Below are positions 45,001-49,352 of a DNA stretch of 64,000 nt, one piece after another. The DNA lies in the NCBI RefSeq assembly GCF_921293095.1, contig NC_060259.1:4712001-4776000 (forward strand), read 5' to 3'. The translations under genes and the position numbers were made by a program. This DNA is from Ischnura elegans (taxonomy: Eukaryota; Arthropoda; Insecta; Odonata; Coenagrionidae). The notes beneath the pieces are model-generated. The model had not been told where the DNA came from. It saw nothing but the letters and a program-made list of their open reading frames with translations, and made no database searches. Numbering within the stretch: position 1 is the stretch's first letter; every line of letters starts with the position of its first letter.

Positions 45001-48000
45001 TGAGAGAAACTATTAGACTCTGGTAGATGTGTTTATATGGACAATTTTTACAGTAGTCCCGATCTTTTCCATAGGTTAGTTCAGAGGACAACGGATGCTG
45101 TTGGAACCGTGAAAATCACGCGTAAAGGTATGCCAGTAAACCTCAAAAAGAAACTAAAGAAAGGAGAAGTTGTTAGTGCAAAGTGTGGGGAATCGGTTGC
45201 TTTGAAGTGGAAGGATAAACGCGATGTTGCATTGCTGACTACAAAACATTCAGACCAAATGCAACCCGTAAGTCAAAAGGGCGGGCTAGAATGTGTAAAC
45301 AAACCTATGTGTGTAACAGAATATAATAAATATATGGGCGGTGTAGATTTAAAAGATCAACTTTTAGAATCGTTCCTGCTGGAAAGAAAAAGGACAAAAG
45401 TGTGGTACAAGAAATTATTCAATCACTTAGTTAATACGGCTGTATTAAACGCGTACATTTTATACCGTAAGGCTGGTAATAACAAAGATCACCTAGCATT
45501 CAGAATGAGCTTAGTGAACAAAATAATTGCTAAGTATCACGGACAAAATTTAGAACAGCGCAAAGGACGGCCCACTGATATCGAAACGGAATGTACGCGA
45601 TTGACCGGGCAGCATTTTGTTCAACAAAACCCGAAAACTGAGACATTTAAGGTTGGAAGATGAAAGTGTGTTGTGTGCACAAAAAACGGAAAGAGAAAAG
45701 AGACAAGATATAGATGCAAAAACTGCCCAGGAACACCCTCACTCTGCTTAGAACCCTGTTTTGAGCAGTATCACACACAGGTCAACTATTAGCCATCGGA
45801 TAAGAGGAGCAGGAAAAAGTTAATGGGTCTGAGAATTGTAAGTACGTATTCATAATTATAAAATTTAAACAATTGTTTATATAATATATTTTTTTGAATT
45901 TTTTTTTGCATAGTGATAAGATTCAAAAAAATATTTTACTTCATGTCTGCACAAAATCTGAAGTGCCTCTAAATTAAAGCACCCTGGGTGGTTTAAATGC
46001 CTTCGATTAAAGCACCGTATAGGGACGGAATAGCTAGGACACATATGCAGTGTCGCACACGCTTGAGGGGTTAAAGATTCATAACGCCCCTTGTAATCGA
46101 GATAAAGGTACAATTCTTTCGCCAAATATAAATGTATAGTTTTATCCAAATTTCATACGTACACGTGGCATATATGGACCTATGTCATAAGATATGGAAG
46201 TTAGCTGGTGATTGATTTTTACCCGGCAAAATACCAGATTTTTGGTTCAAAAGATATATAAACAAATATAACAACGTTGAAATTGAGTTATGAACAAATT
46301 AAAGTTTACCAGTATGGAAAAATATGTACATTAAATGTTTCCTGCAAGTTTCAACTTAATACTAAGAACAGCCTGCCGGCAGTGGCGCCGACTCCATGGG
46401 GCCTGAGGGGGCCCAAGCCCCCTCAATGATTCGTTTGGGGGGGCGGAGCCCCCTCAATATTTCAAGAAAATAATTAAGTTATACTATGCTTTGTGAAATC
46501 ACAAAAATATATTGGTAATTTTTATTTCCCATGTTTGACAATAGTTACCTTTTAAAATAAATTCAACAATGTGTTAAAACAAATTATTATAAGGTTAAGC
46601 AGGTTAACAAAATCAGGTGGTGTGAATCATGATAGTATTTCGGTGCTGCAACACACTTTGAATTTAACCTCTTCCCGGGGCAAGACCTCGGATATGGGCC
46701 CCCCCAATATTTTTTATAAGTCGGCGCCCCTGCCTGCCGGCAAATGGATTAGGAATATAAACTCGGAAAAGTCAAGTTATTTCACGGATTTTGAGGAAAT
46801 ATTTTTTATAACAATTGTTATAAACAAAATCGATTAACCATTGCCTCCCCTAAACGTAGCTACCCTTTCTACTTCAGAATATATTTGTAGACTTGTGGAA
46901 CGAGCGAATTCAAAAAATCGCAAAAAATTGTTCCTCGCCATCCGATTAATTGTTCCAGAATTACATCAAAAACGTATACGATTTTTGTATGTGTGGTGAA
47001 CCCTCTCTATATACTTACTCTATGGTATAGTTTACCACCCATGCATGTGACGGAGTTCAAATTATTTTGTTCTTGAAGTAATTCAAAAGTAAATAGCGAC
47101 ATATATTTGCTTCAGCTTATTTCAATGCTGAGGATTTTTTTTCAATGCAGGTCATAAGGATATTATTATTATAATGAAAATTTGCCAGGACCCTCCTTCA
47201 TATCACATTGCATCAAGTTTAAGTTCAAGTAATGTGTTGACATAAGACTAGGAATAAAGTGAGCCATTGCAAGAATGATATATTAAGGGATGTGAAAATA
47301 TTATACTATTTTTTGTTAATAATATTATTAACAAAAAATACATATAAATATACTGGAGGGTGTGACTTTGGAAACTGAGAAATTAAATGATTTTAGATGA
47401 GTTATCTTGTGTCTTTGTGATATTAATCTTTTTATTAGAGATGTGCGAATAGTATCCGCGAATACTCGAGTAGTAGAAAGTATTCGAGGTCTCAAATAAT
47501 TATGCTAAAGGTACGCTCTTGAATACTTTGAATATTGTGCGGTACACTGTAGTTGGTAGTTGACTCGGAAAATTGTAAAGAACTCTAGTCGTTTGGTGCA
47601 TGCAGCGCCATTATAGGCAAGTTGACGAGCTACATCAAATTTGTGGATTAGAGCGGTGAAAAGAGTTCGACGTCGGGAACCGAAAATGATTGGGTGAAAA
47701 AAATCCGAAAATCCCTGGTTTTCCCCCCCCCCCCCCCCCCCCCCAGGAGAACCTCAGTGCCATGGGATAGAAACTACACAGCTCCCCCACTGACCTTTTT
47801 CTGCCTACCTGCTTCGAAGTTCCCCATTTCTGGAGGTCAACTGCTGCATGAGTACCGTGGGATAGTTACATTAGTGCATTTCCCAAGATCCGCTATCCCC
47901 CTCCATTCAGCACCCCCCCCCCCCCTCTGAGGCTTTCCTCTTTTCTGAAATAAAAAAAAAGTCCCAGCTCGCGCAGGCATCATATTACGAAGACCTTAGC

Positions 48001-49352
48001 TTGGAAAAAAAATCAAGTTACATAAGAGCAATAGAAAAGTGTTTCACGCCCCCTTCAAAGTTCCCAGTTTCTGGAGGTCAACTGCTGCATGAATCACCTA
48101 TTAGCCCAAAAGGTGTCTTACAATGAATTTCGACAATTGATATTACATCTTGTAAAAACTCTTCTTGGGATACCGCGCGGGTAAGATTTTATGAGAGCGC
48201 CAATCTTAATGATATTACATCTTTATTGGATTGAAATATTAGTAATGTGCGCGTAATTTAAAAAAGAATAAGATCAAACACGACGAATTTCTGACTTTAT
48301 TTAAGCATTTTACGCGAGGAAATAAACGTCAAAATACGACGGAGACTTAGCATTCTGGCGAGACTCGATATGAGCAGCAGAGCTTCTTGGAAGTGGATGC
48401 AGTATTTTTTCCGAAAACATGTATCAAGTTACAATTTATGAGTTGTGCTTTAATTCTCTATTGTTACAGTCACAGATGAAGGGATATTTTCTCAGGATAT
48501 TTGGTTTCTCCCTGATAGCCATTCGAATTCATCTTCTTATCTCGTGAGAACTTCCAAAGATGGACTGAAAATAATTAAGGAAAATCCGGTGGAGAAGCAC
48601 GTGTATTTTGCATAATGCCTCAGATTGTCCGCTGGCACTTGACTGCAGGAGTGGAGGTAAAGTGAGCTACCTGTTGAAAATAAGAAGTTGGATGAAGTCG
48701 AGTATCAGATGGGCGTGCCGCTGAAATGGCGTTTGGTAGATACGAATGTATACATCAGACAGAAATCCATTGTAGCAGTGTAAATGCCGAGACGGCATGA
48801 AATCATTTTTCGCGAGGTGGTGTGTCCCCTTAGAATATTTGAAAGAGATATTAGTTGAATCAACTATATGCCTAATTGTTTCCATAAAATTAAAATATTC
48901 CATTAATCAGCTAAATTCCTGTTTGAATCCTTTAAAGGAAATCAAAATTACTCCCCAAAATCTTGTGTTTCCTGCTGCATAGGCAACCGAGTCAAAAATT
49001 GCTGCATTCATCGTTTAGTATTCGAACATTCGAGCAATGATTTAATATTGGAATTCGATATTCGAGTTCGAGAAATCTGCTATTCGACCCATCTCTACTT
49101 TTTATCTGTTTCTTTCAGGAATGGGTGAGAACATTGGCGAAGGAATGGTCAAATATGCCTCCTGAACTGAAAGCCACGTACCAAAGAGAGCATTCTTCAG
49201 CCATGGAAAGTCATCGGCGGCAAATTCAGGAATGGGAGGAGAGAATGATAAGAATGGGACATATTGATGTTGTTAGAAGTGAGGCTCTTATTGAGCCAAA
49301 GGTTACCTCTAGAAAAGTACTCAGAACAAGGCTAGTGGAAAAAAACAAGTAA
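33019..49352 (+). CDS. TFAM: Mitochondrial transcription factor A (TFAM-like), five exons, complete
   Basis: HMG-box protein that bends, packages and activates transcription of mitochondrial DNA. Exons: 33019-33089, 33186-33355, 33436-33641, 38687-38782, 49119-49352. All introns are GT/AG with consistent phases, giving 258 residues against 246 in human. Residues 1-40 are basic and free of acidic residues after E5 ([15 protein letters not shown]), as a mitochondrial presequence should be. HMG box A is about 50-118 ([29 protein letters not shown]). A charged linker covers 119-153. Box B is about 155-221 ([32 protein letters not shown]). A basic tail of about 37 residues follows. Box B is split by the 10.3-kb intron 4, which carries a piggyBac, two hAT elements and a MITE. 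The coding frame is intact throughout. Confidence 0.92.
33692..36391. other. TFAM intron 3, first part: no further gene seen
   Basis: AT-rich intron sequence. Short frames, such as those on both strands near 35940-36290, show no family motif. Confidence 0.5.
36392..37063 (+). mobile_element. MITE, CAATAGGG family, copy 3 (best preserved)
   Basis: 672 bp with clear inverted ends CCAATAGGGTGGTTTCC and the complement of CCAATAGGGTAGTTTCC. Lies in TFAM intron 3, 23 bp from the next hAT element. Confidence 0.78.
37087..37691 (+). mobile_element. hAT-like non-autonomous element, 605 bp
   Basis: Inverted ends AGGCTTCCCACTC / AGGGTTCCCACTC. Flanks TATGTAGC (37079-37086) and CATGTAGC (37692-37699) match at 7 of 8. 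The left 120 bp and right 80 bp carry many CCGTGAA motifs in direct orientation, possible subterminal transposase sites. No transposase is encoded. In TFAM intron 3. Confidence 0.75.
39218..39455 (-). mobile_element. TTAA-flanked MITE (piggyBac-like), copy 2
   Basis: Reverse-orientation relative of the element at 4667-4905, sharing the GCTGCTAGCCAGTGC-type core and the GGATATCTTGCACTTGGGCA segment. One flank reads TTAA and the other TTGA, so one side of the target duplication has mutated. It lies in intron 4 of the TFAM-like gene. Confidence 0.65.
39460..43400. other. TFAM intron 4, first part: mostly unassigned
   Basis: No gene recognised. It includes a tRNA-like SINE scrap at about 40340-40430. 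Other stretches look unique or too decayed to name. Confidence 0.4.
40340..40430 (-). repeat. tRNA-like SINE remnant
   Basis: The - strand reads GTGGTGTAATGGTTAGCATA (A-box-like), then CACGTTCAATTCTCCCGG (degenerate B box), in tRNA-like spacing. Degenerate arms and the lack of clean acceptor ends favour a SINE relic over a gene. Confidence 0.4.
43402..46074 (+). mobile_element. piggyBac transposon 1, full length
   Basis: Bounded by TTAA at 43402-43405 and 46071-46074, with 13-bp perfect inverted tips CCCCTCAAGCGTG. Further CTCAAGCGTGTGCGAC repeats lie about 80 bp inside the left end, matching the subterminal repeats that piggyBac transposases bind. It contains one transposase gene (44076-45791) and is inserted in TFAM intron 4. 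Confidence 0.92.
44076..45791 (+). pseudogene. piggyBac transposase (DDE_Tnp_1_7), two lesions
   Basis: N-terminal acidic region ([20 protein letters not shown]), then [20 protein letters not shown] and [15 protein letters not shown]. The core has [20 protein letters not shown] (first catalytic Asp), [13 protein letters not shown] (second) and [20 protein letters not shown] (third). It ends in a Cys-rich domain at about 45664-45791 ([20 protein letters not shown], then [10 protein letters not shown]), the chromatin-binding finger of the family. One frameshift near 44880 and one in-frame stop near 44999 separate two otherwise clean halves, so inactivation is recent. Confidence 0.88.
46380..46732 (+). 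mobile_element. hAT MITE, CAGTGGCGCCGACT family, copy 2
   Basis: A 353 bp element with inverted ends CAGTGGCGCCGACT / CAGGGGCGCCGACT and a perfect 8-bp target duplication CCTGCCGG at 46372-46379 and 46733-46740. Non-coding. It sits in intron 4 of the TFAM-like gene, just 3' of the piggyBac element. Confidence 0.88.
47436..49097. mobile_element. hAT-like non-autonomous element, TTCGA type, in the TFAM splice acceptor region
   Basis: 1,662 bp from TAGAGATGTGCGAATAG to the complement of TAGAGATGGGTCGAATAG. A perfect 8-bp duplication CTTTTTAT lies at 47428-47435 and 49098-49105. ATTCGA/TCGAA motifs are repeated at both ends (for example AATACTCGAG, GGAATTCGATATTCGAG). A long C run (about 47715-47744) lies inside. 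No transposase. It ends 21 bp before the last TFAM exon. Confidence 0.9.

Follow-up and report, generated by a model that had tools for sequence, protein, structure and literature searches.

The window analysed here, a stretch of 64,000 nucleotides from the damselfly Ischnura elegans (NC_060259.1, positions 4,712,001 to 4,776,000), is part of the X chromosome (contig C19) and carries on its plus strand a TFAM gene whose last intron is interrupted, only 21 bases before the last exon, by a hAT-type transposable element. According to the available part of the genome report, the ioIscEleg1.1 assembly spans 1,723 Mb in 110 scaffolds, with an N50 of 123,641,648 bp and an X of 123.64 Mb, and has an alternate-haplotype counterpart, GCA_921293115.1 (PMC9975421). 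The five-exon model of the gene, in which all borders are GT-AG, gives an intact protein of 258 residues: exon 1 (33019..33089) opens with the start codon at 33019, HMG box A begins in exon 2 (33186..33355) and ends in exon 3 (33436..33641) together with the linker, box B starts in exon 4 (38687..38782), and exon 5 (49119..49352), closed by the stop codon TAA, encodes residues 182-258, which include the later part of box B, as the first-pass annotation of this DNA had proposed for the last TFAM exon. Exon 1 is conserved, and each of the other four is found, in 7/7 paralogues. Exons 1-4 sum to 543 bases and exon 5 therefore begins at a codon start; the intron before it, intron 4 (38783..49118, GT...AG), is 10.3 kb long. 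Pfam recognises HMG_box in two stretches of the protein, and its best match among solved structures is human TFAM (PDB 9mn4 and others; E 3.8e-26), the likeness covering the two HMG boxes and the linker over aligned residues 48-235. By these domain and structure matches the X copy is a full-length TFAM, with two HMG boxes, linker and C-terminal tail. What sets the damselfly apart from the human case is a genome with eight intact TFAM genes, one of them carrying the insertion. A genome search with PF00505 did not return TFAM, whose boxes are either divided by introns or give low scores when each exon is taken singly.

The insertion can be delimited to the base. The element (47436..49097, plus strand, 1,662 bp, probably non-autonomous) has the termini TAGAGATG...CATCTCTA, the outermost 8 bases of its two ends match as terminal inverted repeats at 8/8 positions (TAGAGATG at both ends), and it is flanked by a perfect 8-bp target-site duplication, CTTTTTAT, with its left copy at 47428..47435 and its right copy at 49098..49105. 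Between the element and exon 5 there remain 21 intron bases (49098-49118), the last two of which (49117-49118) are the acceptor AG. These boundaries, both copies of the duplication and the 21-bp spacing had been read in the first pass from the letters of the window and are all confirmed, the ends being shared by other copies of the family. Indeed, the right ~890 bp of the element matches 39 other places at 89-93% identity, in a search of 1,722,721,009 bases (110 contigs) in which 40 of 6,042 first-look candidates were scored, the window copy included. Seven other copies had their ends inspected (L002-L008): all end in CATCTCTA, six begin with TAGAGATG and one with TAGACATG, and the flanking 8-bp duplications are exact in three, retain 7/8 bases in three and 6/8 in one.

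Target-site duplications of 8 bp and short terminal inverted repeats, for which the hAT consensus is YARNG, are the features by which hAT elements are recognised, and both are present here. With its short inverted ends (TAGAGATG/CATCTCTA), 8-bp duplications and many dispersed copies, the element resembles non-autonomous hAT families; it differs from hAT families in that four open reading frame pieces, two from the window copy and two from copy L007, gave no Pfam match at E<=1 and no recognised transposase, so that the superfamily assignment rests on the ends and the duplication length. The element is thus most likely a non-autonomous hAT derivative. Against a consensus built from the other seven, the window copy has differences at 34/888 sites (3.8%), or at 23/802 (2.9%) outside CpG, and each of those seven lies 2.6-4.0% from its own consensus; the insertion is therefore old and falls into one age class with the other copies. 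At about 3% neutral divergence it would be expected to be fixed, and it may be shared between species. It is unlikely to be an artefact of the assembly. Most TFAM paralogues also have, at another place in intron 4, a hAT element that is related to the one in the window (~73-77% similar) and oppositely oriented (L017-L030).

A protein search of the damselfly's own genome with exon 5 returned, besides the window, seven full-length matches free of stops at 83-87% identity, of which six lie on contig C14 (1.72, 3.16, 4.89, 9.32, 9.99 and 10.89 Mb) and the seventh on C15 (7.26 Mb); a search with exons 2-4 recovered the remainder of each gene. In DNA, exon 5 of the X copy differs from that of the other copies by about 9-10%. 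All seven paralogues (L010-L016, L033-L039) have five exons, 258 residues, no stop or frameshift, and conserved splice sites. Intron 4 ends in all of them as ...AACATTAATC...ATCTGTTTCTTTCAG, with no element; its last 21 bases are the same as in the window in five paralogues, and in the other two differ within the CTTTTTAT stretch. When the window flanks are joined and aligned with five of the seven, ATTAAT lies exactly on one side of the break and CTTTTTAT with the pyrimidine tract on the other. Since the site is uninterrupted in 7/7 paralogues, the arrangement of an element at the acceptor is not due to chance, and the comparison of sequences indicates that the element entered the X copy after this had split from the other seven. 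In the introns, the X copy differs from six paralogues at 14-15% of the aligned sites (Jukes-Cantor (JC) distance 0.15-0.17; 351-2,551 sites). The exon 5 search, which gave eight strong places and two weak ones (E 2.96 and 3.95), contained no second haplotype of the X locus.

The TFAM paralogues are DNA-level duplicates that retain their introns. Two of those on C14 (L010/L011) lie in opposite orientation and show 100% identity over 3,231 bp, and a further pair (L013/L015) shows 99.97%; recent inverted duplication, gene conversion or duplication in the assembly could each account for such pairs. Judging from their order and size, C14 (18.8 Mb) and C15 (11.9 Mb), which are listed in the assembly after the twelve large autosomes and before X, would be unlocalised scaffolds of chromosome 13, and scaffolds of this kind are mentioned in the accessible text of PMC10781644. 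If they are, these TFAM copies share a small chromosome with the female colour-morph locus described in that same text (PMC10781644).

What the insertion did to the acceptor region follows from the empty sites. In the joined empty site, U-N-A motifs stand 29, 24 and 23 bases before exon 5, and the same three positions are occupied in all seven paralogues. The full yUnAy there is TTAAT (47423..47427), with its A at -23; this adenine, A47426, is the best candidate for the branch point used before the insertion, and the ATTAAT around it is kept in 7/7 paralogues. The insertion point lies between the U-N-A motifs and the pyrimidine tract, and the old cluster has been shifted 1,670 bp upstream, beyond several AGs, so that A47426 is now 1,693 bases from exon 5. 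The first-pass observation that the usual branch-point zone now falls within the transposon is therefore correct, and it is strengthened by the paralogous empty sites, which reveal that a good earlier branch region was displaced.

How unusual the present arrangement is was judged against 72 reference introns of the same genome: 17 two-ended myosin introns, 18 more myosin acceptors, TFAM introns 1-3 and 34 kinesin acceptors. One of 18 two-ended myosin junctions (score margin under 2), one of 19 single-ended myosin acceptors (ambiguous AG, L066), one misplaced sequence (L051) and 5/39 kinesin acceptors were dropped. Splice sites and branch sites were scored from starting matrices based on general knowledge; two branch models were fitted on 38 introns and, because these disagreed on the best site, the set was raised to 72 and three leave-one-out models were used. 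All 72 references have a U-N-A 18-40 bases before the exon, inside the AG exclusion zone, and 48 of them a full yUnAy at that distance. Intron 4 of the X copy has no U-N-A and no yUnAy at positions 18-40, and so lacks the standard U-N-A at about this distance from the AG. Its best branch-site score falls below 70, 72 and 72 of the 72 references under the three leave-one-out models, under which the joined empty site scores above 14, 19 and 54. Duplex energies between U2 and the branch sites did not discriminate, being 0 in 15/38 reference introns and at nearly all TFAM sites; the U2 small nuclear RNA (snRNA) of this genome carries the usual GUGUAGUAUC / GTGTAGTATC. Its genes form an array on C1 (G000:C1:107969196-108378885, L067) with 46 scored matches, the best 46 of 95,995 candidates, 28 of them sharing the top score and many lying ~1.78 kb apart.

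The acceptor itself tells a different story from the branch region. The pyrimidine tract and AG that remain (49098..49118) score 11.7, above 72/72 reference acceptors, whose scores range from -5.5 to 10.5, and on the plus strand of the window none of the other AGs among 3,814 reaches this value. The AGs of the single-ended references were picked by their pyrimidine score, a choice that raises the apparent strength of the reference set, so this bias works against our claim for exon 5 and not for it. A strong pyrimidine tract can offset a weak branch site, through U2AF and SF1. Because the tract outscores all 72 references, splicing of exon 5 through it is to be expected. We therefore favour, with a probability of about 0.55, the reading in which a strong acceptor was left intact beside a displaced branch region and exon 5 is still spliced at 49118, a prediction made from sequence. 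The steps would be as follows: an old hAT-type element landed in intron 4 of the X copy, parting the branch-point region from the pyrimidine tract, at a time when the X gene had already diverged from the lineage of the seven others; the U-N-A cluster was carried 1,670 bp upstream, while 21 bases of an exceptionally strong acceptor were kept; and U2AF on the strong tract would compensate for the poor branch site, with branching at the host adenine A49104 (-15) or at the transposon adenines A49091 or A49097 (-28 or -22). Several weak sites may share the branching, probably less efficiently than before the insertion.

These three remaining candidates are all weak, and which of them would serve as the main branch point is a question on which the models divide. 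A49104 (position 49104, -15; TTTTTATCT) is host sequence inside the right copy of the duplication; it forms a full yUnAy, and the AG exclusion zone contains no other U-N-A of any kind. The other two belong to the transposon: A49097 (-22; TCTCTACTT) is its last base and A49091 (-28; GACCCATCT) lies a little further in, both with C and no U at -2. One of the 38-intron fits puts A49104 first and the other A49091, and among the 72-intron fits one puts A49097 first and two A49091; a transposon adenine thus stands slightly above A49104 in four of the five fits and A49104 leads in one. Because of this majority for the transposon, we set equal odds on the host and the transposon adenine, each being a serious possibility that falls short of probable.

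That A49104 is the main branch point and the transposon contributes nothing would fit with its motif, with its first place in one of the five fits and with its presence before the insertion, as TTTTTAT in 5/7 paralogues. Its distance lies within the range of -14 to -26 that the available text of PMC10638238 gives for the branch adenine of CTAAT in shorter fly introns, and two of the three 72-intron models find a best site at 15 or closer in 5 and 4 of the references. The third model, however, finds no reference with its best site at 15 or closer, or even at 17 or closer, and the likeness to the fly introns is incomplete, since the range as quoted is for shorter introns whereas TFAM intron 4, at 10.3 kb, is not short and owes its present end to an insertion. 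Furthermore, 12 bases lie between A49104 and the AG, within the limit of <12-15 bases from the branch point at which, as far as the accessible part of PMC1431707 goes, AGs can be bypassed. The transposon adenines have the opposite profile. Their distances (-22 and -28) are ideal, and motif and distance together put one of them first in four fits (A49091 in three, A49097 in one), but they lack the U at -2 and score under nearly all 72 references. The last 28 bases of the window element are identical to the family consensus, so there has been no change that would have built a U-N-A, and the terminus shows no visible adaptation. That A49097 or A49091 works as a portable, non-consensus branch site, without U at -2, supplied by a hAT terminus, is a somewhat doubtful proposal. 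The first-pass interpretation had been that the branch point must come from the transposon unless an unusually close one is used. It is partly supported: the close site is a viable alternative, in the form of A49104, and the "must" is not established, because this host adenine is a full yUnAy and the transposon end has no U-N-A at 18-40.

Several observations weigh against continued splicing at 49118. (i) The X copy has kept its reading frame although its element lies 3.8% (2.9% outside CpG) off the family consensus; under simulated neutral drift of the same extent (2.9-3.8%), the frame survives with p 0.11-0.16 over the whole coding region and p 0.45-0.51 over exon 5 alone, so that the preserved frame argues only weakly for use. 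(ii) Measured for the X copy against the other seven, the ratio of nonsynonymous to synonymous divergence (dN/dS) is not low: 0.52-0.75 for the whole gene and 0.61-1.04 over box B; in exon 5, where changes from before and after the insertion are mixed, it is 0.25-0.75. (iii) With seven further intact genes in the genome, poor splicing of the X copy could be compensated, and their existence weakens the inference that exon 5 of this copy needs to be spliced efficiently. (iv) The loss of U-N-A is unlucky and not extraordinary: stretches of random window sequence set ahead of the 21 retained bases provide one in 4,062/5,000 trials (81%), so most sequence would have been a better donor than the hAT end.

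These points lead to the chief alternative to continued splicing, which we consider rather unlikely, though with a good deal on its side: exon 5 of the X copy would be poorly spliced, with intron retention, polyadenylation in intron 4 or a short protein as the outcome, and the function would come largely from the seven copies. Intron 4 of the X copy has the worst branch-site score of the set, reading through from exon 4 meets a stop after 23 codons, and the seven intact 258-residue copies differ among themselves by a dN of about 0.014 and a dS of 0.042, set beside the 0.52-0.75 of the X copy against the seven. However, the exon 5 acceptor is the strongest of all those compared, and the frame, splice sites and human TFAM similarity of the X copy (95.6 bits, vs 93.2 for a paralogue) are intact. 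Far less probable is a cryptic acceptor in the element, at AG 49066 or 49072, with the element's TTTAAT (49042-49046, ~20 bases before AG 49066) as the branch point and 52 or 46 bases added to exon 5 in a frameshift, since these AGs score -5.8 and -3.0, with 0 and 2 of the 72 references lower, and both products run into an early stop.

The window holds other features apart from this acceptor. A piggyBac-type transposase remnant (DDE_Tnp_1_7), in two adjacent open reading frames at 44070-45663, also lies inside TFAM intron 4, and a second piggyBac-type transposase is found at 55397-56341 on the minus strand. Two tRNA genes, tRNA-Ser (GGA) at 21747-21821 and tRNA-Ala (GGC) at 61311-61384, are both on the minus strand.

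Transposon insertions that disturb branch points are of a known kind. In reporters of human OGDH intron 4a, transposed elements inserted on either side of a branch point create new ones or abolish existing ones and alter exon use, and the U at -2 mattered in the single construct that kept efficient splicing, as far as the available part of that study tells (PMC7969005). The damselfly case resembles these in that an insertion changed the branch points. In contrast to the OGDH experiments, which in the text available concern engineered inserts of a MIR retroposon, reporters and distant branch points (PMC7969005), it involves a natural DNA transposon placed between an ordinary branch region and its tract, with empty-site paralogues. 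A thin search of the literature found no DNA transposon displacing a branch point, and nothing on damselfly TFAM was among the matches listed. TFAM on the X adds a new and clean case from nature, which brings its own controls.

Taken together, the X copy represents a natural and precisely bounded test of how much branch point an animal acceptor needs: the branch region is 1.67 kb away, the strongest tract compared has been retained, and the same nucleus contains seven unbroken copies as controls. It bears on whether a branch point at -15, or one that is not a U-N-A, is enough when the tract is strong, and on whether duplicate TFAM genes may allow one copy to tolerate such damage. If a hAT terminus does provide the branch site, then a transposon end set before a strong tract would have worked at once, and would have kept the last exon of an essential mitochondrial gene in use for millions of years, with no adaptive change.

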